Assembly: GCA_017961265.1 (NCBI GenBank)
Contig: JAGCXN010000001.1
Coordinates: 1 to 51,433 of the forward strand
Origin: Bacteroidales bacterium
Lineage (GTDB): Bacteria; Bacteroidota; Bacteroidia; Bacteroidales; WCHB1-69
DNA length: 51,433 nt
Direction of reading: 5' to 3'
The notes below the pieces were generated by a model that was not told the DNA's origin, ran no database searches, and was given only the letters and a program-made list of their open reading frames with translations. Each line of letters opens with the position of its first letter. Position 1 is the stretch's first letter. Below, one piece after another: positions 26,971 to 49,400 of this stretch. The translations under genes were made by a program, and so were the position numbers.

Positions 26971-29900
26971 ATGAAAGCACCTTTATCACTTTCAAAACAA
27001 TCTTCAAAATGGCAATGGCTCCTCGCCAACTGCTTGATCCTCTTCGCCCTGCTTGTACCAACAGGACTGAAGGCACAAACAACCGTAGATATTGGTACAG
27101 GAACTTCAACAGGATATTATCCTATTCCTGGATTTTGGGGATATCAATATGATGTGTATCTTTATACCCCATCAGAGGCTACTATCTTAAATAGCAATCT
27201 GACAATCAGCAAAATCGCATACCAAATATATTCCACTAGTAGTACTACCAATATAGCCGGATGGCAAATATGGGTGAAGGATGTTGATGCAAGCTACACA
27301 TTGTCTTCCAGCACTGCCTTTTCTACTTTTACGTCAGGAGCAACACAAGTATATAATACTACCAGTGGAACGATTTCTTCCACTGGATGGTACACATTGA
27401 ATTTATCGACCCCATTTCAGCACACAGCAGGGAAGGCTTTGCTCGTAGCAGTTCGCGGTGTTGGATGTACTTCAAGTGGTGGCTGTGGTCGAAATTGTTA
27501 TTATACTTCTGTTAGTAACACCCACTGGTACAAACACCAAGACAGCAGCGACCCAGGAACATCTACTACAGGATCTGTGGATAACTATCGAGCAAATATC
27601 AGACTGACATATACGACCGGTGGCGGCGGCACAACAGGCCCATCTATCAATTTGGCTAGCAACCTTAATCGGACCATCGAATGTGGCACTACCTACAACT
27701 TCTACGACTCTGGCGGACCAAGCGGCGACTACGCCGCTTCTGAAGATTATACCGCCACTTTCACCTCCAGCGGTAACATCACTCTTACGTTCTCAAGTTT
27801 TTCCACAGAGAGTGTTTCATGGGACTATATGTATGTGTACGACGGAACCTCTTCAGGTACAACACTCATTAATAAGGCAGGAGGATCAACGATACCTTCC
27901 GCTGTCACTGCCACCAGCGGCACTATGACCGTTGTGTGGCACTCTGATGGATCTGTCGTTTATCCCGGTTGGGCCGCCACCATCACTGCTAGCGGTTGCG
28001 TTTCCTGTGCCAAACCAAACAATTTATCCGTCAGCAATTTGGGGGCTTCTTCTGCTACTATTTCGTGGAGCGGTAGCGCCTCAAGCTACAATTTGCGCTA
28101 TAAAACCTCCAGCGCTACCTCGTGGACAACGCTGAGCAATATAACCAGCACCAGCCGGGCATTGTCCGGCCTCTCCTCCAATACTACCTATCAGGTAGAA
28201 GTGCAGGCGGTATGCAGTTCCTCCGACCAAAGTGCATGGTCAAATACATTCAGTTTCACCACGACCATGACACCCACAGCCATTGGCAATGGCTGGAGCG
28301 ACAATTTTGAAGGCTCCAATAACTGGGCTTTTGCGAATGGAAACCAGACCAATAAGTGGGTCCTCGGCACCGCCACCAATAACGGAGGCTCCAAATCCCT
28401 CTACATTTCCAACGATGGGGGATCCAGTAACTCCTATACAATGACATCGGTTCAAATATCATATGCCTATAAATTATTCTCATTCACAAGTGGCTCCTAT
28501 ATTTTCTCCTACGACTGGAAAACATACGGAGAAGGTAGCTATGACTACCTTCGCGTGTGGCTTGCCCCTGCAACGGCCACTTTTACCGCCGGCCAGCTTC
28601 CTGATGGAACCACTTCGCTCTATGATTATACTAGCACAACACCCAGCGGCTGGACTTCCCTGGACGGCGGAAGTAAGCTGAATCTGCAGTCCTCATGGCA
28701 AAACCAGACCGTACAGAATGTAAGTGTGTCTGCAGGCAACTACTATTTGGTCTTCATGTGGGCAAATGACGGTAGTTCTGGAAGCAATCCTCCCGCCGCC
28801 ATTGACAACGTGACTATCACACCGCCTCCTACCAATGTCACCATTAATGTAAGTGCCGGCACTGGCGGCAGCGTGTCGGGCGGCGGAGTCAAGACATATG
28901 GCAGCTCCGTCACCGTCACCGCTAACCCGGCCTCCTGCTACAACTTCGTAAGCTGGACCGAGAACGGCACTGTGGTGTCCACAAACGCTTCCTATACCTT
29001 CACCGCACAGAATGATCGCAATCTTGTGGCGAACTTCGAGGAAGTGCCGTGGCAACCCACCCTCACCTCCAACCCCTCCGCTACCACCTGCATCACACAG
29101 GGTACACCCGTCACCCTCACGGCTGGTATCACAGGGGTGAGTAATGCCAACTCCCTTGCCGAATACACCTTTGCCACCGGCACGGATGCCTCAAAATGGT
29201 ACACACTGACGAATACAACCAACCTTATCACCTCATCTGGCGATAGCTATGCCTCCAGCCTTCAAGATATTGGTTTCGCCTTCCCCTTTGCTGGAACCAA
29301 TTACACCCAGTTCTCGGTAAATTCTGATGGAAATCTCCGTTTAGGTTCGACGGTTACAGGAACATCTTATTATAGTACTCCTTTTAGTTCATCCTCCGCA
29401 AACTATAACAATCCCAAAATTAATGGGATGGGATTTGATGGCTATTTTGACATTTCAACCTATAACAACCACGTTTACAAGCAAGTTTTCGGCACTGCCC
29501 CCAATCGTGTGTTGGTGGTGGAATTCCGTGAGTCTCCCTATAGTTCAAGTTATAGAGCCAACGTATGGAACTGGCAGGTTCAGCTAAGCGAGAACGGTGA
29601 CATACAAATTGTCTATGGTTCCACAGCACCTGGTTCCTATGGTTCTTCGAACCAGATAGGATTGTGCGTAAGTGCTTCAGACGGATGGACTATCAATACC
29701 TCCACGCATACACCAGCCCATTTCACGGCAGGGACCTCCACGACCAATGCCAGTGCCAATTCATGGCCAGGCGTCAACCGCTACTACCGCTTCACGCCCC
29801 CGACAGTTCAAGCTGACAGCTACGCTTGGAGCGCTGTCGGTACGGCAGGAACCCCCTCTGGCAGCACCTACAGCGTGACACCCACACAGTCAGCCAACCG

Positions 29901-32900
29901 TTATACCGTATCAGTTACCTATGAGGGCTGCACCCGATCCACCAACACGACCATAACCGTACAGGATGCCACACCTACCGGCCTCACTTTCTCAAATGTG
30001 ACTACCAACCGCGCCACCGCATCATGGAACGCCGGCAGCGCCACAAGCTGGGAGTACTGCTACGACGGGACCAACTGGCATAGCACCACCTCCAATACCG
30101 TGACCCTTACGGGGCTCACCATCGGTACTCTCTATCATTTCCAAGTGAGAACCGCCAGCTCCGCATGTCCCAGCGGAATCGCTGCGGGTGACTTTGAGAC
30201 CGCCTGCACCGCACGCTCCCTCACATGGAACGACGGCGGCAGCAGCATCAACCTCCATCCGTTTGAAACAGCTCAAATACCGGCTAACGTCTCCACCGGT
30301 GGCGGCACCATCACCTATACTTCATGGGATCCCACTGTGGCCACCATCGATGAAAACGGTACTTTGACCGCCCTGCGCCCAGGCACCACCACCATTACTG
30401 CCGAAGTGCCCGTGGACGACCCCTATTGCGGCTATATCATCACCCGTAACATCACCGTGAACGCCTGCCCCGAAATCACCCTCGGCAGCGGCACCACCAA
30501 CAATGCTAATCTGCCGTCGTACTACAACAACAGCTACTCCCTCTCCGAACAGCTCTACAGCCCCTGCGAAATCGGCAAGGCCGGTACCATCAGCAGCATC
30601 GCCCTCTACAACAGCAACAGCTCCAACACCACCAACCGCAAATTCGACATCTACCTCGTCCACACCGACAAGAACTCCTTCAGCAGCACTTCAGACTGGA
30701 TCCATCCGACTGCTGCCGACAAAGTGTATAGCGGCACCGCCAACACCACCTTCGCAGCCAACGGCTGGACTACCATCTATTTCGACACCCCGTTCGAGTA
30801 TGACGGTATTCACTATTTGGCCTTGATTATGGACAACAATATGGGATCCACCTCCACCAGTGCCAATTTCCGTACCTATGCCGCTGAAGAAAGCCTATCT
30901 CAAGCACTTAGAATCAACGGAACTACCGACTATAACCCAACCAGCATTACCACTGCCGGTAACCTTCATCAAATAAAGAATCAGGTGAAGTTCGGCATCT
31001 GCAACCAAAATGACGTGACCACTACGGTCTCCATCGCAGCCACAGCAAACCCGACTGGCGGCGGCACCATTACAGGAACGGGCAGCTACGACCTCTGCGA
31101 AACCGTCACCCTCACCGCCACTCCTGACCCGTGCTACCGCTTCGTGCGCTGGACTGAAAACGGCACTGCTCTTCCTGCAAATGCCACCAGCACCGCCATT
31201 TCGTTCAAAGCGACAAAAGACCGTACTTTCGTGGCCGTCTTTGAAGAGTGGGGTGTAAGCCTCGCCGCCAACGGACAGGCCAGCGACATCACCGTGGATC
31301 GCGGCAGCGAAGTGACCCTTACCGCCTCCACCTCTCCGGCACCGCCGGTAACCCCCACCTACACATGGGCTGTGACCGCAGGCACCGAAGGAGCCATAGG
31401 CACTAATGATCGAACCTATGTGGTTAATCCCGAAGAGGTGACAAACACCTATACCGTGACTGCCGAGGTAAACGGCTGCCAGAAGAGCGCCACTCGCACC
31501 GTCACCACCCGCTGTCCCGCTCCCACCAATCTCCAAGTGACCTACACCGCCAACGGTGCCGAAATCACGTGGGACGGCGACGCCGACAGCTACAACGTGC
31601 AATACAGCACCGATGGCGGTTCTTATACCGAAACCCTCTTCTCTGATGATTTTGAAAATGGATTGGACCGCTGGACCCTGATTGATAACGACGGCGACGG
31701 CTACCCGTGGATGAGCCTTAGTAACTTAACCGACTATACTACCTCTTACTCATCAGTGAGTAGTTGGGCTCACAACGGAACCAATGCTGCCCTCAGTGGT
31801 TCCTTCATCAACGGTCCTGGTGCCCTATCCCCTGACAACTACCTTATTTCACCCCAAATCACTTTGGGTGGAACACTCACCTTCTATGCAAGATCTTTGG
31901 ACGCAGACTGGCCAGAACATTTTGGCTTAGCTGTATCCACCACTAATACTAATGTCAGCGCCTTCACCACTATCCAAGAATGGGACACCTATGAAGACAC
32001 TGAATACCATCTTTACACAGTTGATCTCAGCAATTATAGTGGACGAGGCTATATCGCATTCCGCAATTTCGACGTGACAAACCAATACATTGTTATCATT
32101 GATGATATCAGTATTACACGAGAAGTGCAGGCTGAGCCATACACTTCCGATCCCGAAACCGTAACCAGCAACGCCTATACCCTCACTTGCATCGGTTCTA
32201 ACGCTCACACCGTACAGGTACAAACAAACTGCGGCATTGACCTGAGCGAATGGAGCGAGGTAATTGTAAATCCGAACGGTGGAGGTGGTGATGTTACGAT
32301 TGGTGACGGAACAAACACCTACTATTACTATCCTGTTAATATGTACTATAACTATTCCCTTACCCAGCAGCTATATACAGCTGATGAGATTGGAACAGCA
32401 GGCCCCATCAACTCCATTAGTTTCTACTATGACTACACAAGCAGCTTCTCTCTGCCAGCAGTTGAGCTTTATATGAAAAATGTAAGCAGAACTTCCTTTG
32501 CAAGCAATACTGATATGGAGCCCGTTGCAAACAGCGATATGGTGTGGACAGGTACTTTTTCCGCATCTGCTGCAGGTTGGGTGACTATTGATCTCACCAC
32601 TCCGTTCCAGTATGACGGCACCAGCAATCTTCTTGTGTGCATGCGTGACCCGACTGACGACTATCCTGGTTCTTCATTTAAATTCCGCACACATGTGACA
32701 GACAGTTACAGCGGCATACATTGGTATAGCGATTCTTATACTCCGTCTATTGGGACTACTTCATTTGACGGTAGTAAGTCATATACACAATACCGCAACA
32801 ACATCAAACTTACAATAGGGTCATCCGTACCTAGCACCTCACCTGGCGGCGCCATCGCCAGCAGCACTAATGTCACCGCTATCGATGTCTGCGCAAGCCA

Positions 32901-35900
32901 GACACAACCTATTGTCATCGAATCAGTGGTTGGTGTGAGTAACGGACATTACAAATGGTACCGCAACGGCGTGGAGATTCCGGCCAGCGACACCGATTCC
33001 TACACCATCACCTCCGATGAGTTGCAGAGCCTCGATCCCGGCACCTACACCTACACTCGTGAAGCCTACAACGTCTGTACAGAGGCATGGGAACCCTCCG
33101 AAGGCGCATACACCATCGACATCGCCCCAGCACCTACCTACCCTGATATCGTAGTCACCGGCTATGAAGAACCTATCGTCTGCGGCAATGAAGCCACCCT
33201 TTCTGTGAACACCCACCGCGACGACCTCACCCACTACTGGTATGCCGATGCAGAATGTACCATCCCCATCGGTACCAGCTCCGACGGAACCGGCGTGGGC
33301 GACGCTATCACCTTCAATGTGTACGAAGACACCACTATCTGGCATCAGATACAAGAAGAATCTACACCCACAACTGAGACCGTAACATTCTTGCAACAAA
33401 ATTGTGACAATTCGGATTTCAACGGCTGGAGGATTTCTACTAGCACAGAAGATCAATGGGAGGTGGGTAGTGGTTATCCCTCTAGTTATAATTATTCCAC
33501 TCATTCTGGTAGTTATTGCTTTCAAATTTATGGACAAAGAGCAGAGGAATGGAGCTATCTCTATACCCCCACACTGGATTTAAGCAATTGTTCAGAAGTC
33601 ACTCTCACTTTCTGGTACGCAAATGCCGAATGGGCTGGCGACATTGATTATTTGGCTGTTATTTACTCTACCGATGGTGGAAATAATTACACGCAACAAT
33701 GGATTACCCAAGCTGCACATAGCAGCTGGACTTCACAGACTCTCACTCTTCCCGGTGGAAGCGCAAACTTTGTGATTGCTTTTGCAATGTATGACAACTA
33801 TGGGTATGGTGTTGTTTTGGATGACATACAGGTCACAGGAGTCGAAACCATATCTAACTACATCTGTCCTTCCACAGCCGAGCCTATCACGTTGCACGTA
33901 AGCGATCTGCCGACACCCGAAGTGCAGGCTGCCAATGTAACTACCCCGTGCGGTGTGCCCGTCACCCTCTCCGTGGGCAACAACTACGACGAGAACCTCC
34001 ACTACGAATGGAGCTTCAACGATACTGAGTTCGCCACCGAGAACATTGTCGGTGAAGGCCGCAGCATCACCATCAGCCAGCCCACCAACGCAGACGGCTA
34101 CAACTACTATGTGAGATGCTACGTCATCAAGAACAATAACGAGCATGGCTGCGAATCTGCGTATGCCACCGTCCACGTCACCGTGGAGGATGCTCCCGAA
34201 TTCACCTACACTCCTGAAACCTCCATCTGCGGCGACAATGTCACCCTCTCTCTCGAAAACACCGTGGAAGGCTACACCTACGACTGGTATCAGGATAATG
34301 AACCCGTCAATACTGGCCTCAACCTCTTGCTCGAAAATCTTACTGAGAACACCTCCTTTGTCATTAACTACTACCCCACCGACAATACCCAGATGGAAGC
34401 CTGCTATAAGGAAAAAGAGATAACGGTCACCCTCCGTCCGATCATTGCTCCTGTTGTGGCTATCTCCGGCTATGCAAAAGATGCTGAGAACGACATCTAC
34501 TACTGCGGTACACCTCTCACCTTCACTGTCACCAACGACACCGCCGACATGGCCAACTTCGACTATGTATGGTTCAGCGATGAGGCTTGCACCCAGACCC
34601 TCAACGGCGGCAGCAGCAACCGCGAGCTCAACATCGGCAATCTCAACAACCTTGAGGACCGCACCGTCTATGTGAAGGCCTGCCGTATGAACACCAACCT
34701 CTTCGAGCCTCAATCGGCAGCCTGTCTCTCCAACGCCACTTCCGCCTCCATCACCATCGCCCCGATCGATCCCGTTGTGAACGCCTACTACCTGATTGAC
34801 CCGTTCACTTTCGAGACTGCTACCAAGGTCGATGTCTGCCAAGATGAAACCATCGAACTCATCGGCAGCAACGATTACAGTGGCACTATTCTTGGCGATG
34901 CTGTTGACGATCAAGAGATCGAAAACAAATTAGTATGGTACCGTACCGACGGCAACGGCGACAGCACCATGGTTGGCGTCACCGATAACGAAACGGCTTT
35001 GCAAGTAAGCGAAAGCGAACCCGGCACCTACTACTACTACGCCTTTGCAGTGGGCCACGCCACACAGGACGAGGTCTCTAACAGTGACATCACTACCACT
35101 TGGAACGGTGTGGAAACCGACAAGGGAACTGCCCTCGCCTTCAATGTCACCAGCCCCAACTACACTATCTACCTCAACTCACTCGAAGTGTATCCCTATG
35201 ATGACAACAACGCCACCAATGTGACTGTTTACTACGCACAGACTGCCAATGCCGATCCTAAGGACGAAGATGCCGGCTGGGCACAGGTCGGAACCTACCA
35301 GATTATGAAGAACGGCAACAATGCTGTGCCGATCGTCCTCAACAACAGTGCCGACGAAGTTGACAATTCCATTGTAATTCCTGCCAACAGCACTTACACC
35401 ATCTATCTGTCGGCAGACAACGACCTCTACTACAACATCCACAGCGACGACAACCCGAGAAGAGCATCGGATCCGATCAGCGGTGCTGGTCTCCTCTCCG
35501 GTACAGCTTATGGATTCGGCAGCAACTGTAACCAAAACTTCCCGGTTCCCACTTGTGCTTCCGAACAGTCCAAGATGGAATTCGCCGGAAAGCTCAACCT
35601 CACTCTGTATGGTGGCAACTTCTGCTTGTCAGAAAACTCAGAAAACCACTACGCAGTGGATACGGTAGTCGTACACGAGCAATCCACCACGCCCAAATTG
35701 GAGATCTCCAACAACCAGTACTACGTATGCCATGGTGATGATCCTATCACTCTGACAGCTACTGCCACAGTGACTGGTGATGATATCTCCTACGTTTGGA
35801 TGATGGATGGCGAAACATTCGCCACCACTACTGAAAACTACATCGAAGTTCCGATTCCCGACGATGAAGAGATTACGTCAGTCGAATACAGTGTGGTTAT

Positions 35901-38900
35901 CAGCTCTCTCACCTGCGAAATGACCGATCCTGGCTCTGTCACCCTCAATATCTCCGTGGTTCCGGGAGTTGAGGACATCGTCAGCGACACCCTCTGTGCT
36001 CCGGCTAACATCAGCCAGCTCAGTCCCTCTGTAGAAGGTGAAGAATTCATCGAAGAGATGGGTTGGCAGTATGCCGACAGCGAAGACAGTGAAGAGTGGA
36101 CCACCCTTGAGGATGTGACCCACCTCACCAGCGAGCTCAGTGGCAAGTATTTCCGTTTCTTCGCCAGCACCCCCTGCATCACAGGCTACAGCAACGCCGT
36201 GGTCTTTGTGATTGACTCTGTCCCCTACTACGATGAAGACGCTCTGAAGACGCCCGATCCCATTTGCGCCGGTGCCGCCTTCGATTGGGAAGGCAACAAT
36301 GCCGTGCCGAACCACATCAACAACAGCGGTCGTGAGACCCGTTCCGGCTGGAACCTCTTCGCCGGCGGCCAGCTCACCACCCTCACTGCTGACTTCCAGT
36401 TCGAATTCCACGGCATCCAATCCGACTACTACCAGTACAATTGTTACTATGTATCCCGTTGCGGTGACACTTGGGACTCCATCGTAAGCAACACCGTCAC
36501 CATCACCATTTGGGATGTGCCTACTATTGACAACGACATCATTATCGGCAACAAGCCCGTCTGCGCCGGCAATCCGATCAGCATCGACGCTCCTGCGTTC
36601 ACACCTTACGGCGAAGTCATCGCCCACGGTTGGGAGTATGCTGACTTCCCGGGCGCCAACCATTACACCCGTCTCTCCGACGGTGTGGATATCATGGACG
36701 GCGACTTCACCCTCGGCTACGACATGAACGGCAAGTTCGTCCGCTACTATGTGGAGACCCAGTGCGGTACCGCTGTTTCCAACTCAGTACAGTTGGCCAT
36801 CACCGCTCAACCGCAACTGTCCAACCTCACGACTCCGGAAGCCATCTGCGACGGCACTCCGTTCACGCTGGATGCTCCTGAGGTGACCGACAACGGCGGC
36901 CTTGACATCATCAACGCCGACTGGTACGTCATCATCGGCCAAGACGATCCCGCCAAGGTTGATGCCGACGCCACCATTACCGAAGAGTGGAACAACGCCC
37001 GCCTCTTCTACCTCGTGGAGAACGAATGTGGCATCACTTCCTCCGACACCATCACGCTGACCGTCAACCCGGCCATCGGCCTCAAAGCCTATGCAAGCCT
37101 TGACGGTGACACTGAGCTGGAAGGTAACGGCTGCTTCGGTCCTGACTACTACCTCGTCGCCCAGACCAACGACATGGAGAATGTCGAGTTCGCATGGTCG
37201 AACCAGATGACCGGCGAAGTCGTCACCCTCGAACGTCCGGAGGCCGGCACCTACGAATACACAGTTATCGCCACAATGGGCACGGGTTGTGAAGCCACCG
37301 CTACGGTGACCTTCACCGTCAACGAACTCATGCACAAAGACACTACCGTCAATGTGTGCTTGGGCGAACTCCCCTACACCTTCGACAGCGAGCGTCAGGA
37401 TGCCATCTTCGAAAACGGCGGCGACTACGAACTGAACTATCAGGTCGGTGCTGAGGGCTGCGACTCCGTCGTCACCCTGCACCTGAACGTCTATCGTCCC
37501 ACCATCGAGCACACCAACATCCACCTCTGCGGTGGCGAAAGCTACACTTGGGAAGTAAACGGTTTGACTTACGGCGGTGCCGGCATTGCTGACACGACCC
37601 TCATGGACACCGTATATGTTAAAGGTACGACGTGGATCAGCGACCTCGGCAACCACGAGGCGTGCGACTCCGTCATCCAGACCTTGCGTGTGGTCATCTC
37701 CGACGGTCTCTTCATCGACATTCCGAACGATGACTTCACCGTGGCCGTGGGCGAACAGGTTTCTGCCGTCGCCAACGTGCGCATGGGTTGCCAGCCGACT
37801 GCTGCCAAGACGATTATGTCCTACCAGCTCTACAAGGACGGCGAACCGGTTGACGATGCCAACCGTTATGGTGCACTGAACTTCACCACCTATCTGCCGC
37901 AACAGAACAGTCACTTCAGCACCGACATTGCAGAAGGCAACGGCAATATCCCGGGTACCACCTTCAATGTCTATAACTACGCATTCAATTACTTCTATGC
38001 AAACTTCTTCGATGAAATCGAGAACCAGATCACAGCTACTTGGAACGAGCCTGGTGAATACGAAATCAAGTTCGTGGTGGCTGAGATGACCAATGGTCAG
38101 GATTTCCCGATGACCTATCCGACAACGGTGAACGGCACGGCCACGCAGATTCCTATGGGTGGCGCTGGTTCGACGCCCACCGGCCTCACGCTGACTGACA
38201 CCGCAAGCATCGTCTTCCACGTGGATGGCGAGCCTGTAGAGGAAGAAGAGACCGAACCCACCGCGAACTATAAGGGTCACCTCGACATCGACACCACCGT
38301 CTTCACACAAGACATCAACGCCACAAGCGAATTCACACTCAGCATTGTTCCTGATGCTGCCAATGAACCGACGAAGTTGGCTGTTGACTACGAAATCTAT
38401 CGTAACGACGAGATGGTCGCCACCGGCGCTTACGGCAATGTACACTTCCAGACGAAGGTACAGCGTCTGAACCGCTGGTTCGGCAACGACCTGACAGGTG
38501 CAAACGGTTCCATCCCGGCCAACACCTTCACCATCGTCTATCACAATTACGACTACTTCTACAACCACTTCGCTGAGAACACCGAACACCAGTTCACCGC
38601 TGTCTGGAACCAGCCGGGTGAATACAAGGTGAAGTTCATCCTCCGCGAGCGTACGGCAGGTCAGGATATCCCGCTGCCCTACAACGCCAATGGCGACATG
38701 CTGATCGGCGGTCACGGCTCCGCTAACGGTGCCATCGTCGCTTCCGACTCTGTCGTCTTCGTGGTCAAGGGCGAAACCGTCACCCTCGAACTCGACGAGA
38801 CCATCTGCGAGGATAATCTCCCGTTCGAGTACAACGGCCTCACCTTCACCGAATCTACGACCGACCCGGTTACCATCCCCGATGTGAACGGCCTTTATGA

Positions 38901-41763
38901 CACCCTCCTCACGGTGAACCTCACCGTCATCACTCCTGATACGGTACGTCTTGAGGAAACAGTTTGCGACAGCTACGTCTGGAACAACGAAGAATTCACT
39001 GAAAGCGGTGTCTATACGAAGAACTTCGAGAACGTCCACGGTTGCGACAGCGTCGTCATCCTGACGCTCACGGTCATCGGCCAGCCCGAAGTGACGATCT
39101 CCACTGCTTACACTACGGTTTGCGCAGGCACAGACGTTCCTGTCACGGCCACGCTGACCTACCGTGCCGGCGAAAGCACCTCCAATGCAACAGAGGTGAG
39201 CTTCACCAGCGACGAAACCTCACGTGATACCACGGCCGGCATCGTCACGGTGATTTACGAAAGCACGCTTTCCGAACTTGCCACCACTACCCAGCTGACC
39301 GCTCAGAGCATCAGCACCGCCAATGGTGTCACCTGCACTGCCGTTGACACGATCGAGATCACGGTGCTGCCCACCGACTCCATCGTCAGCTTCACGGCTA
39401 CGGTCTGCCAGGGTGAGGCCTTCGACCGCAATGAGGAATGGGACGAAGTCTTTGCCTTCGGTATCTCCGGCGAGCGCACACAGGCCGCTATCGCCGCTGA
39501 CAACCGCATCCCGACCGAGATGCGCGACACCATCATCACCGGCCAGAACTCCTGCGGTATCTACCGCGCCGAGCTCATCCTGACCGTCAACCCGTCATTC
39601 ACGGCCAATGATCCTAAGGTTGTGGAAGATGTGGTCTGCGAAGGCTACGACTACGACGGCAATTACAACTTCAACTTCTCTGCTGAGGAGATCGCCGACA
39701 TGCTGACGACCGCTACGGCCAACATCGTCATCGCACGCAGCGAGAACGAATCTTCCACTGGTTGCGACAGCATCACCGAGCTGCGACTCACCGTGATGCC
39801 TTCCGCACGTAGCGAAGCTTACGACACCGTCTGCGGCGTTTACTACGACCAGCGTCAAAACGAAATCACCGAAAGCGGTGACGTTGACTTTATCTATCCG
39901 AATGCTGCTGCCAGCGGTTGCGACTCCATCGTAACCGTCCACGTGACCGTCTATCAGCCCGTCGTGAAGGAAGTTTACGACACGGTCTGCGATGCCTTCA
40001 CTTGGAGCGACAACGATGAAGAGCCTATCACCACAAGCGGCGACTACACGCGTGTCTTCACCGAAGGCGCTGCCAACGGCTGTGACTCTACCGTAATCCT
40101 GCACCTGACAGTCAAAAACAGCACGCACGAGAGCTTCACTGAAGCCGCTTGCGACAGCTTCGCATGGAACAATATTACCTATTACACAAGTGGTACTTAC
40201 ACTTACGAGTACGAGAATGAAGCCGGCTGTCCGAGCGTTGACACGCTGCATCTGACCATCAACAACGCCAGCCGTGTTACAGCAAGCCGTGAGATTGCAC
40301 TGGCTGAGATTCCGTACGAATGGAACGGCGTCACCTTCACAGCTCCTGGCACACAGGAGGTCACCCTCACCAGCAGCACCAACTGCGACAGTGTTGTGGT
40401 GATGACACTTACCATTGAAGGTATGGACAACACCGGCAATGAGCCGACGATTGCTGTCACTTACAACAGCACTGCAGACACCGCCACCATCCGCGTCTTC
40501 GCCAACCAGGCCGATCCTTCCGCCAAGTACTCCCTCAACTACACGTTGACGAAGGATGAGGAAGAAGTGAACGACATGGACTTCGACTGCGGCGGACGTC
40601 TCTACATCGGCACCGAAATGGGTGAATTCATCTATGGTGAAGAACTCAACGCAGTTACTGGCAACGTGCCGCAGAACACGTTCCATATCGCCAACTACCA
40701 CTACGACTACTTCTACCTCAACTTCTTGAACGGACGCGCCAACATCGTGACCAACAGCTTCACACAGCCCGGTACTTATACCGTCACCTTCGAGATGGTG
40801 GCTGAGTCCGATGGTCAGGACTTCCCGATCCCGTTCGACGAAGACCTTACACACCTCATTGGTGGTAAGAACAGCACGCCTTCCACAGAAGTGGTTGCCA
40901 CTGCTACGGTCACCTTCACTATCACTGATGACGGCCAGGGTGGTTCCAGCACTTCCGGACCGGTTCTCGTTCTGACACAGAATGGTCAGGATGTGGAAAC
41001 CGTCAACGATCTCAACACGCCTGTACGTATGACAGTGGATGCCAACGGTTACACCACCAACGAGCGCGTAGCTATCAACTACACGATCCTCGACGAGAAC
41101 GACGAGCCGCTGCCGATGCTCACCAACATCGGTACGGTGAATGTCAAGACGTCTTGGAACGGTCAGCTCTATGGTCAGAATCTGGCTGAAGCCACCGGTT
41201 CAATCCCGAGCGCTTCCTTCTGCCCGATCATCAACTACCGTTACAATTACTTCTATCTTGACTTCCTCACCTTCGACGAGACCTATAGCGAAATCGCCGC
41301 TACTTGGAACGTGCCTGGCACCTACAAGATCAAACTCGAACTGGTACAGATGGCCAACGGTCAGGACTTCCCGCTCACCTACGGCACAAACGGCCAGCGC
41401 ATGGGCGGTAAGATCGCTACCGCTACCGGTGTCACCTTCGATACGAAGACCCTCACCTATAGCGGCTCGAACCAGGCGGCTAACCCGGCAGCTACCGGCA
41501 TCGCTGAGAACAACGGTATCGAGGGTATCTCCCTCTATCCGAACCCGACTCGCGACATCGTCAACGTGAAGCTCAGCCTTGACGGCAACGACAACGCCGA
41601 ACTGCGTCTGTACGACGTTTATGGCAAGCTGCTGAAGACGGTGTCCGTCTCAGGTGCTGTCACCGAAATTGACCTCTCTACCTACGCCAGCGGCATCTAC
41701 CTCGTCAAGCTCGTCAACAACGGCGAAGTGACGGCTGTCGCTAAGGTGATGAAACAACACTAA
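26971..41763 (+). CDS. Giant 4930-aa T9SS type A surface protein
   Basis: Secretory signal at about 1-35 (LILFALLVPTGLKA|Q). Approximate layout: repeated N-domain a1 39-217; CUB 224-344; Fn3 346-431; jelly roll 434-620; InlB-B 620-694; Ig with insert 696-995; Fn3 999-1079; BIG2-like 1080-1167; a2 1168-1345; InlB-B 1350-1427; Ig 1427-1514; Fn3 with a cleaved-adhesin-like insert 1515-1770; a3 1773-1951; Ig-like array with two inserts 1954-3453; CDS-type repeats (CDSxVxLxLxV) 3454-3573 and 3938-4487; four copies of an unassigned ~170-residue domain at 3575-3765, 3766-3937, 4488-4655 and 4656-4832. The type A sorting domain is at 4851-4930 (LYPNPTRDIVNV, LRLYDVYGKLL, ASGIYLVKL). No enzyme motif seen; adhesion or matrix function is likely. 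One uninterrupted frame. Confidence 0.95.
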   Translation: MKAPLSLSKQSSKWQWLLANCLILFALLVPTGLKAQTTVDIGTGTSTGYYPIPGFWGYQYDVYLYTPSEATILNSNLTISKIAYQIYSTSSTTNIAGWQIWVKDVDASYTLSSSTAFSTFTSGATQVYNTTSGTISSTGWYTLNLSTPFQHTAGKALLVAVRGVGCTSSGGCGRNCYYTSVSNTHWYKHQDSSDPGTSTTGSVDNYRANIRLTYTTGGGGTTGPSINLASNLNRTIECGTTYNFYDSGGPSGDYAASEDYTATFTSSGNITLTFSSFSTESVSWDYMYVYDGTSSGTTLINKAGGSTIPSAVTATSGTMTVVWHSDGSVVYPGWAATITASGCVSCAKPNNLSVSNLGASSATISWSGSASSYNLRYKTSSATSWTTLSNITSTSRALSGLSSNTTYQVEVQAVCSSSDQSAWSNTFSFTTTMTPTAIGNGWSDNFEGSNNWAFANGNQTNKWVLGTATNNGGSKSLYISNDGGSSNSYTMTSVQISYAYKLFSFTSGSYIFSYDWKTYGEGSYDYLRVWLAPATATFTAGQLPDGTTSLYDYTSTTPSGWTSLDGGSKLNLQSSWQNQTVQNVSVSAGNYYLVFMWANDGSSGSNPPAAIDNVTITPPPTNVTINVSAGTGGSVSGGGVKTYGSSVTVTANPASCYNFVSWTENGTVVSTNASYTFTAQNDRNLVANFEEVPWQPTLTSNPSATTCITQGTPVTLTAGITGVSNANSLAEYTFATGTDASKWYTLTNTTNLITSSGDSYASSLQDIGFAFPFAGTNYTQFSVNSDGNLRLGSTVTGTSYYSTPFSSSSANYNNPKINGMGFDGYFDISTYNNHVYKQVFGTAPNRVLVVEFRESPYSSSYRANVWNWQVQLSENGDIQIVYGSTAPGSYGSSNQIGLCVSASDGWTINTSTHTPAHFTAGTSTTNASANSWPGVNRYYRFTPPTVQADSYAWSAVGTAGTPSGSTYSVTPTQSANRYTVSVTYEGCTRSTNTTITVQDATPTGLTFSNVTTNRATASWNAGSATSWEYCYDGTNWHSTTSNTVTLTGLTIGTLYHFQVRTASSACPSGIAAGDFETACTARSLTWNDGGSSINLHPFETAQIPANVSTGGGTITYTSWDPTVATIDENGTLTALRPGTTTITAEVPVDDPYCGYIITRNITVNACPEITLGSGTTNNANLPSYYNNSYSLSEQLYSPCEIGKAGTISSIALYNSNSSNTTNRKFDIYLVHTDKNSFSSTSDWIHPTAADKVYSGTANTTFAANGWTTIYFDTPFEYDGIHYLALIMDNNMGSTSTSANFRTYAAEESLSQALRINGTTDYNPTSITTAGNLHQIKNQVKFGICNQNDVTTTVSIAATANPTGGGTITGTGSYDLCETVTLTATPDPCYRFVRWTENGTALPANATSTAISFKATKDRTFVAVFEEWGVSLAANGQASDITVDRGSEVTLTASTSPAPPVTPTYTWAVTAGTEGAIGTNDRTYVVNPEEVTNTYTVTAEVNGCQKSATRTVTTRCPAPTNLQVTYTANGAEITWDGDADSYNVQYSTDGGSYTETLFSDDFENGLDRWTLIDNDGDGYPWMSLSNLTDYTTSYSSVSSWAHNGTNAALSGSFINGPGALSPDNYLISPQITLGGTLTFYARSLDADWPEHFGLAVSTTNTNVSAFTTIQEWDTYEDTEYHLYTVDLSNYSGRGYIAFRNFDVTNQYIVIIDDISITREVQAEPYTSDPETVTSNAYTLTCIGSNAHTVQVQTNCGIDLSEWSEVIVNPNGGGGDVTIGDGTNTYYYYPVNMYYNYSLTQQLYTADEIGTAGPINSISFYYDYTSSFSLPAVELYMKNVSRTSFASNTDMEPVANSDMVWTGTFSASAAGWVTIDLTTPFQYDGTSNLLVCMRDPTDDYPGSSFKFRTHVTDSYSGIHWYSDSYTPSIGTTSFDGSKSYTQYRNNIKLTIGSSVPSTSPGGAIASSTNVTAIDVCASQTQPIVIESVVGVSNGHYKWYRNGVEIPASDTDSYTITSDELQSLDPGTYTYTREAYNVCTEAWEPSEGAYTIDIAPAPTYPDIVVTGYEEPIVCGNEATLSVNTHRDDLTHYWYADAECTIPIGTSSDGTGVGDAITFNVYEDTTIWHQIQEESTPTTETVTFLQQNCDNSDFNGWRISTSTEDQWEVGSGYPSSYNYSTHSGSYCFQIYGQRAEEWSYLYTPTLDLSNCSEVTLTFWYANAEWAGDIDYLAVIYSTDGGNNYTQQWITQAAHSSWTSQTLTLPGGSANFVIAFAMYDNYGYGVVLDDIQVTGVETISNYICPSTAEPITLHVSDLPTPEVQAANVTTPCGVPVTLSVGNNYDENLHYEWSFNDTEFATENIVGEGRSITISQPTNADGYNYYVRCYVIKNNNEHGCESAYATVHVTVEDAPEFTYTPETSICGDNVTLSLENTVEGYTYDWYQDNEPVNTGLNLLLENLTENTSFVINYYPTDNTQMEACYKEKEITVTLRPIIAPVVAISGYAKDAENDIYYCGTPLTFTVTNDTADMANFDYVWFSDEACTQTLNGGSSNRELNIGNLNNLEDRTVYVKACRMNTNLFEPQSAACLSNATSASITIAPIDPVVNAYYLIDPFTFETATKVDVCQDETIELIGSNDYSGTILGDAVDDQEIENKLVWYRTDGNGDSTMVGVTDNETALQVSESEPGTYYYYAFAVGHATQDEVSNSDITTTWNGVETDKGTALAFNVTSPNYTIYLNSLEVYPYDDNNATNVTVYYAQTANADPKDEDAGWAQVGTYQIMKNGNNAVPIVLNNSADEVDNSIVIPANSTYTIYLSADNDLYYNIHSDDNPRRASDPISGAGLLSGTAYGFGSNCNQNFPVPTCASEQSKMEFAGKLNLTLYGGNFCLSENSENHYAVDTVVVHEQSTTPKLEISNNQYYVCHGDDPITLTATATVTGDDISYVWMMDGETFATTTENYIEVPIPDDEEITSVEYSVVISSLTCEMTDPGSVTLNISVVPGVEDIVSDTLCAPANISQLSPSVEGEEFIEEMGWQYADSEDSEEWTTLEDVTHLTSELSGKYFRFFASTPCITGYSNAVVFVIDSVPYYDEDALKTPDPICAGAAFDWEGNNAVPNHINNSGRETRSGWNLFAGGQLTTLTADFQFEFHGIQSDYYQYNCYYVSRCGDTWDSIVSNTVTITIWDVPTIDNDIIIGNKPVCAGNPISIDAPAFTPYGEVIAHGWEYADFPGANHYTRLSDGVDIMDGDFTLGYDMNGKFVRYYVETQCGTAVSNSVQLAITAQPQLSNLTTPEAICDGTPFTLDAPEVTDNGGLDIINADWYVIIGQDDPAKVDADATITEEWNNARLFYLVENECGITSSDTITLTVNPAIGLKAYASLDGDTELEGNGCFGPDYYLVAQTNDMENVEFAWSNQMTGEVVTLERPEAGTYEYTVIATMGTGCEATATVTFTVNELMHKDTTVNVCLGELPYTFDSERQDAIFENGGDYELNYQVGAEGCDSVVTLHLNVYRPTIEHTNIHLCGGESYTWEVNGLTYGGAGIADTTLMDTVYVKGTTWISDLGNHEACDSVIQTLRVVISDGLFIDIPNDDFTVAVGEQVSAVANVRMGCQPTAAKTIMSYQLYKDGEPVDDANRYGALNFTTYLPQQNSHFSTDIAEGNGNIPGTTFNVYNYAFNYFYANFFDEIENQITATWNEPGEYEIKFVVAEMTNGQDFPMTYPTTVNGTATQIPMGGAGSTPTGLTLTDTASIVFHVDGEPVEEEETEPTANYKGHLDIDTTVFTQDINATSEFTLSIVPDAANEPTKLAVDYEIYRNDEMVATGAYGNVHFQTKVQRLNRWFGNDLTGANGSIPANTFTIVYHNYDYFYNHFAENTEHQFTAVWNQPGEYKVKFILRERTAGQDIPLPYNANGDMLIGGHGSANGAIVASDSVVFVVKGETVTLELDETICEDNLPFEYNGLTFTESTTDPVTIPDVNGLYDTLLTVNLTVITPDTVRLEETVCDSYVWNNEEFTESGVYTKNFENVHGCDSVVILTLTVIGQPEVTISTAYTTVCAGTDVPVTATLTYRAGESTSNATEVSFTSDETSRDTTAGIVTVIYESTLSELATTTQLTAQSISTANGVTCTAVDTIEITVLPTDSIVSFTATVCQGEAFDRNEEWDEVFAFGISGERTQAAIAADNRIPTEMRDTIITGQNSCGIYRAELILTVNPSFTANDPKVVEDVVCEGYDYDGNYNFNFSAEEIADMLTTATANIVIARSENESSTGCDSITELRLTVMPSARSEAYDTVCGVYYDQRQNEITESGDVDFIYPNAAASGCDSIVTVHVTVYQPVVKEVYDTVCDAFTWSDNDEEPITTSGDYTRVFTEGAANGCDSTVILHLTVKNSTHESFTEAACDSFAWNNITYYTSGTYTYEYENEAGCPSVDTLHLTINNASRVTASREIALAEIPYEWNGVTFTAPGTQEVTLTSSTNCDSVVVMTLTIEGMDNTGNEPTIAVTYNSTADTATIRVFANQADPSAKYSLNYTLTKDEEEVNDMDFDCGGRLYIGTEMGEFIYGEELNAVTGNVPQNTFHIANYHYDYFYLNFLNGRANIVTNSFTQPGTYTVTFEMVAESDGQDFPIPFDEDLTHLIGGKNSTPSTEVVATATVTFTITDDGQGGSSTSGPVLVLTQNGQDVETVNDLNTPVRMTVDANGYTTNERVAINYTILDENDEPLPMLTNIGTVNVKTSWNGQLYGQNLAEATGSIPSASFCPIINYRYNYFYLDFLTFDETYSEIAATWNVPGTYKIKLELVQMANGQDFPLTYGTNGQRMGGKIATATGVTFDTKTLTYSGSNQAANPAATGIAENNGIEGISLYPNPTRDIVNVKLSLDGNDNAELRLYDVYGKLLKTVSVSGAVTEIDLSTYASGIYLVKLVNNGEVTAVAKVMKQH

Positions 41764-41784
41764 TTGCGGTAATCCGTACAATTC

Positions 41785-41818
41785 AAAAAGGAGGAGATGA
41801 AAATCTCCTCCTTTTTTT
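41785..41818 (+). terminator. Intrinsic terminator of the giant gene
   Basis: AAAAAGGAGGAGAT / ATCTCCTCCTTTTT, a 14-bp perfect stem with a GAAA tetraloop and a T-run, 22 bases after the stop codon. Very strong. Confidence 0.95.
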
Positions 41819-41839
41819 CATTCTTCCCCAAAAATAATG

Positions 41840-41847
41840 TATCTTTG
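41840..41847 (+). promoter_or_regulatory. Putative -7 promoter box for ribE
   Basis: TATCTTTG followed by CGCCG, 24 bases before the ribE ATG at 41872 and just after the terminator of the previous gene. Confidence 0.65.
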
Positions 41848-41871
41848 CGCCGTTTTTGCAAAATCACAACT

Positions 41872-42483
41872 ATGTTTACAGGAATTGTAGAAAAAACCGG
41901 AAAAATCGTCAAAATTGAACAGGAAAACAGCAACTTCCACTTCACCATCGAGGTGGACTTTGCCGACGAGCTAAAAATCGACCAGAGCATGGCCCACGAC
42001 GGCTGCTGCCTGACCGTCGTAAAAGTAGATAAGGAACATAACCAGTACGTGGTAACGGCCATGGACGAAACCATGCTGAAGACCAACCTCCGTACGTGGA
42101 AGGTGGGCTACGAGGTGAACCTCGAACGCAGCATGCGCATGGACGGCCGCTTCGACGGACACATCGTGCAAGGTCACGTCGATCAGACCGCCACTTGCGA
42201 AAAGGTGGTGGACGACAACGGCAGCTGGCGCTACTACTTCACCTACGACACCAAAGGCGGCAACATCACCGTGCCGAAGGGATCCATCTCCGTCAACGGC
42301 GTGAGCCTCACCGTGGTGGACTCCGAAAAGGGACATTTTTCCGTCGCCATCATCCCCTACACCCACAAAGTCACCAACTTCCACAATTTCCAGCCGGGAA
42401 CGGTTGTCAACATCGAATTCGACGTGTTCGGCAAGTACGTCCAACGCCTTTTAGAAGAATACCTTAAAGATTTCAAAAAATAA
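41872..42483 (+). CDS. ribE: Riboflavin synthase, alpha chain
   Basis: 203 residues from ATG 41872; the longer frame from 41797 starts inside the terminator hairpin and is rejected. Two lumazine-binding repeats: first with the N-terminal MFTGIVEKTGKIV and DGCCLTVV, second with GHIVQGHVDQTA and SISVNGVSLTVV. Dismutates 6,7-dimethyl-8-ribityllumazine to riboflavin. The ROK kinase gene begins 4 bases after its stop codon, so they share an operon. Confidence 0.97.
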   Translation: MFTGIVEKTGKIVKIEQENSNFHFTIEVDFADELKIDQSMAHDGCCLTVVKVDKEHNQYVVTAMDETMLKTNLRTWKVGYEVNLERSMRMDGRFDGHIVQGHVDQTATCEKVVDDNGSWRYYFTYDTKGGNITVPKGSISVNGVSLTVVDSEKGHFSVAIIPYTHKVTNFHNFQPGTVVNIEFDVFGKYVQRLLEEYLKDFKK

Positions 42484-46360: not shown

Positions 46361-46427
46361 GCATTTGCTAAAATGCAGATACATCTATTTGAAAATAAAA
46401 TAATTAAATTAATAAAACACAAAAATT

Positions 46428-49400
46428 ATGAAGAAACTTTATTCTTTTCTGATGCTTGCGCTAACCCTCGCCCTGGGGGCGGCAAATGCTCATGCACAAT
46501 CCATCACCGTCTCTTCCTACGAGATCAGCGCAGGGGTAGAGGGCTACGACGGCACATTGTACGTATCTTTTGGTTATGATATTTCTGAATATCGTCCCGA
46601 CCTGCAATTCTATGCCGATGGCATAACTCCTGTGGAAATGGGCGCATATAGCTGGCTAAGTGCCACTTTTCGGAACGATAACTACGATGAACTCCGCTGT
46701 GGATTCGGCAATAATCCTGGGATTGCCCGCACGGCCTACCTGAGAGTGGTGCTGCGCGACAATGCCTACCCCTACGCCGTGATCGACTCCTCCGACCTCA
46801 TTACCATTTATCAGGAAGGTGCCGACTGTCCGGCTCCCGACCACCTCGCCCTGACCGAAGGCAGTATCACCCAAAAAGGCGGCTCTTTCACATGGACGGG
46901 CTATACGAATGAATATTGGATGTATATCGATTTGGTGGAGGAGGCAGATGAGGGACGCTTATTCACAGCTAACTTCAATGAAGAGTCTCTACCGAGTAAC
47001 GAAAATGGCTACTTCATTAATAATAGTTTTTCTTGGGGTGATACTGAAGGTGTAATTACTGCTTCCAATCCAAACCTCGGTTGCATCAAAAGCGACAACT
47101 ATCTCTGGGACGGCACTGCGACATTGGAACTCTATATGTTTTCGAAGGGCTACCCGACACTCATCAGCTTTGAGGCGATGCTCTTGGCTGGAGGGAATAA
47201 CAAGGGCAGCTTTTGGATTGATGGCATAAAGGTGTTGGAGTTATCCGGCGGCGATTTCCAGACAAAAGATTGGAGCCACTACACCTTCGAGCTGTCTGCA
47301 TACTACCCGCACACTCTTGAATGGAAATTTACCAAGAGCGACGACCCTCAGTATGTTGACGACGCTTTCTTCATAGACGACATCCTCATTTATAAATATA
47401 CCGAAGCCTATAGCTATGATCCAGTTCACGTATATAGCAACAACGTAACGCTCAACGATCTTGGATGGGGATACACTTACCGTGCTTACGTTCAGGGCGT
47501 ATGTCCTGAAGTATATGATGAACAATGGGGTTACTGGTACAGTCCTCAGACTGGTTCGAGCAATTACGTATTCTTTACCACGGCCGTAGAATGCCAGAAA
47601 CCTGACCATTTGACTGCCACGAATATGACCGGCAGCTCCACCGACATCAGTTGGGCGGGCTATGGGTACGATCACTTCGACATCTATTGTGCCACCGAGG
47701 ACCTCTCCAATGTTAACTTCCGTCGTGTCACGGGGACCTGTTCGTCCACTATCACCGGCCTTTCCCCTAACACCACTTACAAAGTGTGGTTGGAGACCAC
47801 CTGTGAGGCAAGCATGCAAAAGGGGAATTCCACGAGAGGGACAATGATCCTAATATCGGATACGCTGCTGATCACCACCAACTGCGGCGCCGCTCTCCCC
47901 TACTTTGAGGACTTCGAAAATTGCGCGGCGACCACCTCGGATCAAGTTCATTATCACAGTCTTCCTGTGTGCTGGGAAAGTTATAACGAAACCTTCAATG
48001 ACACCTGGTACGACGGTTATCCGACCGTCATGCTGACTGATTCGGTCAGCCGATACTCATATTCAGGAGAGCAGCTCCTATGTCTGAAATCCCGTTATGC
48101 TTCCAGTGTAACTAATACGGATCAGTATGCTATTCTACCGGCTATGGGCACGGTTCCGGTGAACACATTACAACTAAGTTTCTATGCCTGCCGCGGTCGT
48201 GATAACTACAATAATATTCCGCTTTATGTCGGTGTGATGTCCGATCCCGAGGACATCGGTACGTTTGAGCTTTTTAAAACCATCGAAATCACGGGCGTAA
48301 ATACTGATGTATGGGGAAATGATTACGATGGTTACTGGTATCACGGTTACAATCAATATACGGTGGACTTCAGTAACTATACAGGGCAGGGAAAATACAT
48401 TGCCTTTATGATGGAGCGGGCAACAAGTTCATATGAGCCAAAAGCCATTTACATCGACGACATCTCCTGTGTGAGTTCGGTCGTTCCTTCTTCCACCTGT
48501 CCCACTCCCACCGGACTAACAGCCTCCAATGTCACCACCACTTCCGCAGACCTTTCGTGGAACAGCGAAAACGGCATTTCCAGTTACAACGTCGAATACC
48601 GTGAGGGTGCCAGTATGAATAGCACCTTCTTTGAAGAACCGTTTAACAACAGCGGGATATCCTGGAGCTGGGACCAATATTCCGGTTTGGTGGATGACGT
48701 GCTTGCCGGCACCACTGAACTTACATACAGCAGCGTGTGGGGCACATCATCTAATGCCTTGGGGGCATACAGCGCCAAAATCAACATTTACGGAGATGAG
48801 CGCATGGGCTGGCTTGTGACACCGGAAACCACACTTCCAACAGACGCGGCCTTGACTTTCGATCTCGCCCTTACCAGTTACAACTCTTCAAACGCCGCCA
48901 GCACGACTGGCAATGATGACCGTTTCGTTGTCTTAGCGTATGCCGACGGGCATTGGACCAAACTGCGCGAGTGGAACAACAGCGGTTCCTCCTACGTTTT
49001 CAACGACATTGCCACCACGGGAGAGAATGTGTTCATTGACCTTTCAGCCTATGGTAACAAAAACGTGAAGATTGCCTTTTACGGCGAGTCAACTCAATAT
49101 AACGGCGATAATGACCTGCATATCGACAATGTGACCTTAGGCACTGCTTCAGGAGCTGGCGAATGGCAGTCCGCCGCAGAAAACACCCACAACACTTCCG
49201 CTGAAATCACCGGACTAACTCCTGATACCCGGTACGAAGTACGGGTACGATGTAACTGCGCTGGAGAGGACGTGAGTGACTGGTCAGAACTTTTCACCTT
49301 CAATACTCCGCCCTCCTGCCCAACAGTGAGCCAACTTGAAGTCCTCCAAGTCACCAATAGCACCGCCACCATTACGTGGAGAGAAGGCGGCGATGAATCG

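Follow-up and report, generated by a model that had tools for sequence, protein, structure and literature searches.

A four-copy domain of a giant T9SS surface protein and its placement beside the sorting signal in Bacteroidales

Results

A giant ORF with a T9SS sorting domain

The window (the whole stretch of Bacteroidales DNA analysed, 51,433 nucleotides) carries on its forward strand a giant surface-protein ORF of 4,930 aa (26971..41763), the N-terminus of which is hydrophobic as judged by eye. In an hmmscan of the whole protein against Pfam, 12 families were listed and six were above the cut-off: Flg_new_2 (InlB B-repeat), Cleaved_Adhesin, Por_Secre_tail, fn3, CUB and Big_2. The T9SS C-terminal sorting domain (CTD; Por_Secre_tail, 41533..41745, forward strand) scored 48.5 bits against the curated Pfam cut-off of 27 bits and passed the NCBIfam cut-off too. 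SprA was found over its cut-off in the same genome and in 13 of the 13 genomes of the genus. The tail together with SprA marks the giant as probable T9SS type A cargo, in line with the T9SS protein noted from the sequence earlier.

SprB-type giant T9SS adhesins are likewise giant, repeat-rich and T9SS-tailed. In comparison with them, the tail of the window giant is of the Por_Secre_tail type. The downstream neighbours scanned were a riboflavin synthase, a ROK kinase and a topoisomerase/gyrase A; no PorP/SprF match was present in these three, and a gliding cluster with PorP/SprF beside the giant was rejected. A second long open frame (46416-51431, forward strand, 1,672 aa) reaches the window edge and contains a stretch ~35% identical to the CDS-repeat region of the giant.

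Four homologous copies in one frame

Towards its C-terminus, the giant holds four homologous copies of a domain of ~170 residues, all in the one open frame of ORF 26971-41763, as the earlier note had described. By profile bounds, C1 spans 37699..38235, C2 38266..38778, C3 40435..40935 and C4, which adjoins the sorting domain, 40951..41478 (all on the forward strand). The bounds proposed before were in frame except for the third start, 40431; the in-frame start lies at ~40435. Between C2 and C3 there is a 552-residue stretch with seven CDS motifs (38779..40434, forward strand).

The motifs read in the earlier note recur in all four copies: GNIPGTTF, GSIPANTF, GNVPQNTF or GSIPSASF, then a YFY box, P-G-x-Y, GQD and a late GG. 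On the forward strand, the aromatic box is FNYFYANF in C1 (37984..38007, YFY at 37990), YDYFYNHF in C2 (38548..38571, YFY at 38554), YDYFYLNF in C3 (40702..40725, YFY at 40708) and YNYFYLDF in C4 (41242..41265, YFY at 41248). GQD lies at 38095 (C1), 38659 (C2), 40813 (C3) and 41359 (C4). This motif holds for the window copies but not for the family, as relatives have GGxD, GTD and others.

Identity among the copies is low, as claimed: in the alignment of the four, C2-C4 are 29-38% identical to C1. A search of the own genome with copies 1 and 2 recovered copy 4 at E 2e-20 and copy 3 at 6e-16. A profile made from distant copies in other proteins only found all of C1-C4 (E 8e-19 to 1.4e-12), and so did a second profile of this kind (E 5.7e-23 to 1.2e-11). 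Judged by these searches, the four copies are certainly homologous and not a chance likeness.

Searches against named families

In the whole-giant scan, none of the best stretches listed fell on C1-C4. When scanned alone against Pfam, copies 1, 2 and 4 gave no match, and copy 3 matched PKD (PF00801) at 11.5 bits and PKD_4 (PF18911) at 9.5 bits, well below their respective cut-offs of 23.5 and 27. Against NCBIfam, copy 3 matched TIGR03769 (P_ac_wall_RPT) at 21.2 bits (cut-off 30.9) and NF038134 (choice-of-anchor M) at 17 bits (cut-off 55), together with one further unrelated model, also below cut-off. What copy 3 shares with TIGR03769 and NF038134 is a segment of ~20 residues about its P-G-x-Y strand; the other three window copies matched neither. 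Ig and fn3 profiles did not match the window copies.

We scanned 38 close members of the family in the same way at E <=1. In Pfam, PKD_4 and PKD each matched five members (best E 1.2e-4, the best of any family match, and 1.7e-3; these are E-values and not gathering scores), while Ig_2 matched three (best E 0.0018), SusE three and Ig_3 one (E 0.0096). Eleven more Pfam families each had a single matching member; the strongest of these matches was DUF6911 (E 6e-4). In NCBIfam, TIGR03769 matched nine members and choice-of-anchor M two (best E 0.0003 and 0.0047, as E-values only), and thirteen more models matched one member each. Among 15 distant members, there was one PKD match (E 0.013), and four other families matched one member each (E 0.05-0.16).

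The PDB search with the 38-row profile was empty at E <=10; with the four-row profile it gave 30 weak matches, the best at E 0.2. In a literature search limited to open-access PMC, none of the paper titles listed named such a domain. The earlier claim that no named family covers the copies stands after the Pfam and NCBIfam scans of copies and relatives and the PDB profile search. As far as these scans reach, the domain family is absent from the protein-family libraries searched.

Distribution among genomes

The domain was matched in 69 of the 104 genomes of the window's Bacteroidales family at E 1e-5, including 12 of the 13 of the genus. In a set of 60 relatives, 19 matched at E <=1e-3, with none of the 24 other-family genomes of that set among them. 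Order-wide, six of 393 genomes matched at 1e-5, and G183 was the sole one outside the family; with the C-end profile (below), five of 393 matched at 1e-4, all of them in the family and G183 not among them. Phylum-wide, one of 395 genomes matched, which was the own genome. In the large genome searches a first-look filter scores part of the candidates, so that match counts are lower bounds. A single-row scan of genome contigs found no relative among 38 stretches, and a four-row scan found four loci, all in uncultured Bacteroidales MAGs; two of these have 'RUG' in their isolate names, which presumably points to a rumen origin. On this distribution, the domain family is lineage-restricted, with matches almost confined to one Bacteroidales family.

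The own genome (77% complete) has 52 T9SS-tail matches, and the domain was found in the window giant only. A general requirement for T9SS export was rejected: with just one of the 52 tail matches found to carry it, T9SS export as such does not depend on the domain.

Placement at the chain ends

We measured the position of the domain in 42 matching ORFs whose C-terminus was in hand; ORFs cut by a contig or fetch end were left out, each set of identical tails entered the count a single time, and the rows include some near-copies within one genome. In 40 of the 42 (39 of 41 from the main measurement plus L115, found with filters off), the last copy stops 88-113 residues short of the C-terminus, directly ahead of the T9SS tail; as the regions were mostly picked for two matches in one ORF, this is a measure of geometry and not of frequency. 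The PNP motif of the tail follows the domain after 15-34 aa in all 39 rule-abiding ORFs of the main measurement. In one giant in which C4 was not found (G001, L038), C3 takes the same slot, 94 residues from the end.

The two exceptions, L055 (G023) and L130 (G183), both have spaced tandem copies. The L055 ORF (1423-7599) has four diverged copies ~320 residues apart and away from the tail, and the YFY box is absent in the three that were aligned. The L130 ORF (2920-14925, 4,002 aa) has nine distant copies spaced ~345 residues; it comes from another Bacteroidales family and is the sole out-of-family case seen.

The domain occurs at each end of the chain in 21 other giants for which both termini were available; L057, of which the C-end is cut by the contig, is a further such case. 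These bookend giants belong to other genera and also to some members of the window's own genus. Of their copies, the 23 at the N-end start between residues 26 and 95 of the open frame. The C-end copies number 25; 24 of them end 98-113 residues before the frame end, and the 25th is that of L057. SprB repeats were found in one (L131) of the two bookend giants scanned. Profile-profile comparison gave probabilities of 99.9% for close versus N-end copies, 99.9% for close versus C-end copies and 99.6% for N-end versus C-end copies. A profile scan of the window giant gave no copy at the N-end: apart from C1-C4, its best stretch reached 0.6 bits.

Position-specific copies and layout

The tree was built on 40 close copies, drawn from 14 proteins and named after their order in the chain. 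Five of the proteins have four copies, two have three (G010, cut by a contig end, and G001, with C4 not found) and seven have a C3-C4 pair only, all seven being cut by contig ends; some rows are paralogs or near-copies within one genome (G005, G006, G008 and G009). We observed that C3 (14 rows) and C4 (12 rows) form one clade each (support 100/98 and 99/99), a branch with support 82/85 separates C1 (7 rows) from the rest, and all C2 rows but that of G001, six out of seven, share one clade (99/95). In an extended tree built with a quick method, 23 N-end and 23 C-end distant copies were added, two incomplete C-end copies being omitted. One branch (support 88) separates the N-end group from the remaining rows, and another (support 77) the C-end group; C1 and C2 need two changes each. 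The six position labels together require six changes, where the minimum possible is five and shuffled labels give 51.9.

On these trees, the copies are position-specific across the genus, with C3 and C4 in one clade each and C1 and C2 nearly so. These clades support the earlier suggestion of an old domain under constraint. In their C-terminal halves, the giants from G009, G010, G005, G002 and G008 are collinear with the window giant (31-35% identity over 1,222-1,320 aligned columns). The position clades and the collinear halves indicate that the four-slot layout predates the divergence of these members of the genus.

The layout of two adjacent pairs split by CDS repeats is general only in part. 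C3 and C4 are adjacent in 12 of the 12 proteins where both were found. C1 and C2 are joined by a linker of 7-12 residues in three of seven giants (window, G010 and G001), whereas in the other four (G009, G005, G002 and G008) they lie 191-212 residues apart with two CDS motifs inside, and therefore their adjacency is not a rule.

These data bear on whether the domain is a plain spacer, that is, a diverged PKD/Ig domain of no special role spread by duplication. Weak PKD/Ig matches in a minority of members would fit this, as would the fn3, Big_2 and similar modules that the giant also carries. We nevertheless consider a plain spacer unlikely in view of the near-complete separation of the position classes on the tree, the terminal placement in 40 of 42 ORFs and the near confinement of matches to one family.

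The presence of the domain at both chain ends in the bookend giants, and the separation of the N-end copies, and likewise of the C-end copies, from all others by a single branch, are what would be expected if the end copies (or C1 with C2 and C3 with C4) bound mutually, as a homotypic clasp that turns the chain into a loop or ties neighbouring giants together as filaments. Such a clasp appears improbable, and the window giant, without an N-end copy, speaks against it. A very doubtful proposal is that of a lineage-specific end-capping domain, the copies of the two ends recognising each other to give loops or end-to-end surface filaments, and the tandem C1-C2/C3-C4 arrangement in the window genus being derived.

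Fold and the aromatic box

The PKD domain is a seven-strand beta-sandwich. In profile-profile comparison, a PKD profile (22 rows drawn from 30 loci) matched the close-family profile with a probability of 29.8% over 37 columns, against 0.1-0.3% in five column shuffles and 0.5% in the reversed control; with the N-end and C-end profiles, the values were 0.9% and 2.9%. The copies and PKD (PF18911 / PF00801) have in common a WxxPG-x-Y-x-V-x-F strand pair, within this weak profile similarity. The copies differ from PKD in length (~170 versus ~85 residues, with a long region on either side of the shared strands), in the absence, by reading, of the W-D-F-G-D-G motif from all four window copies, and in that the window copies stay below the gathering score. 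In a hydrophobic-moment scan, KVAIxY and PGxYxIxF were among the strands marked; of the windows over the aromatic box, only one was marked. On these weak hints, the domain is probably a beta-sandwich related to PKD/Ig, and an Ig-like fold of the copies, as suggested earlier, is plausible.

The aromatic box pattern was present in 37 of the 40 close copies, compared with 2.5% of shuffled sequences, and lies 15-18 residues from G-x-Y in 35 of the 37 close copies that bear it. This conservation would suit a ligand-binding adhesin module, in which the box and the GGxD...GG loop form a putative site, repeated for avidity; the ligands would perhaps be plant or mucin glycans. The use of several copies on giant surface proteins fits avidity too. 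On the other hand, the box is relaxed in the distant copies (present in 12 of the 23 at the N-end and in 12 of the 25 at the C-end), no carbohydrate-binding family occurred among the Pfam matches of the 38 close members, and a membrane-proximal copy is poorly sited for adhesion. In the weak profile-profile alignment, moreover, the box aligns to the PKD strand Y-x-W-x-F-G-D-G. Should this one alignment be correct, the box would form a strand of the core and not the inserted loop suggested earlier, and its conservation may reflect core packing. We regard ligand binding as possible but rather unlikely.

A putative role next to the sorting domain

The role that we tentatively consider most likely is that of a structural module which precedes the CTD and ends the chain in giant T9SS surface proteins. 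In its favour count the almost constant spacing between the last copy and the sorting domain (40 of 42 ORFs), the filling of the C4 slot by C3 in G001, the position clades, the tail and SprA matches above cut-off and the PKD similarity above shuffled and reversed controls. Against it count the single carrier found among the 52 tail matches of the own genome, the loss of the PKD similarity with the N-end and C-end profiles, the placement in L055 and L130 and the match-based choice of regions. C1, C2 and the N-end copies, moreover, need another role because they are far from the CTD.

A PAATGI motif directly behind C4 (41485..41502, forward strand) resembles the PT/GI cleavage consensus reported for the CTDs of Prevotella intermedia (PMC11969387), and may serve as such a site. 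Breaking the contact between the CTD and the preceding domain of P. gingivalis RgpB is reported to have blocked secretion (PMC11285876). Ig-like domains of T9SS cargo are reported as essential for stability (Sato 2018, cited in that paper). The motif likeness and these two reports lend support to, but do not establish, a structural role before the CTD. The domain preceding the CTD in P. gingivalis T9SS cargo (RgpB; Ig-like) occupies the same slot directly before the T9SS CTD; the present domain differs from it in that the PDB profile search yielded no match by sequence, and in occurring up to four times per protein, and in other giants near the N-terminus too.

We propose that C4 would pack against the CTD during export. 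The CTD would then be cut at the PAATGI-like motif after export and the new C-terminus linked to LPS, whereby C4, the last copy, would become the outer-membrane-proximal domain and later secure the fibre at its base. The copies earlier in the chain, namely C1 and C2, and the copies at the N-end in other giants may be further rigid modules built alike, with position-specific surfaces.

A domain family whose placement is near-strict, next to the T9SS sorting signal and, in many giants of these uncultured Bacteroidales, close to the N-terminus as well, offers a handle for finding and aligning giants that otherwise seem loosely related repeat proteins. It also raises the question of whether a dedicated domain before the CTD aids the export or anchoring of chains of several thousand residues.

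Genes adjoining the giants

In the window (41763-41872), the giant lies directly upstream of the riboflavin synthase; the start of the ORF listed at 41797-42483 is probably too early, the synthase beginning near 41872. In G003 (L041:2279-2405), a different giant of 4,143 aa with distant end copies is also directly upstream of riboflavin synthase.

A conserved genomic locus was rejected: G010, with a 99% identical riboflavin synthase, has an 877-aa ORF before that gene. A common ORF of 504-513 aa upstream in the stretches fetched from G001, G012, G002 and G007 likewise speaks against a conserved locus. From their N-termini, we take the 877-aa and the 504-513-aa ORFs to be ClpB and AtpD, respectively.

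Directly upstream of the bookend giant of L037 there is an OmpA + PD40 gene (L037:6864-8897) with a weak carboxypeptidase-regulatory match, presumably of PorE-like architecture. The flanks fetched for L116, L117, L123, L124, L126, L127 and L131-L133 showed no homolog of this gene; one that is 71-86% identical in the main segment was present in L057, L114, L119, L120, L121, L122, L125, L128 and L129.
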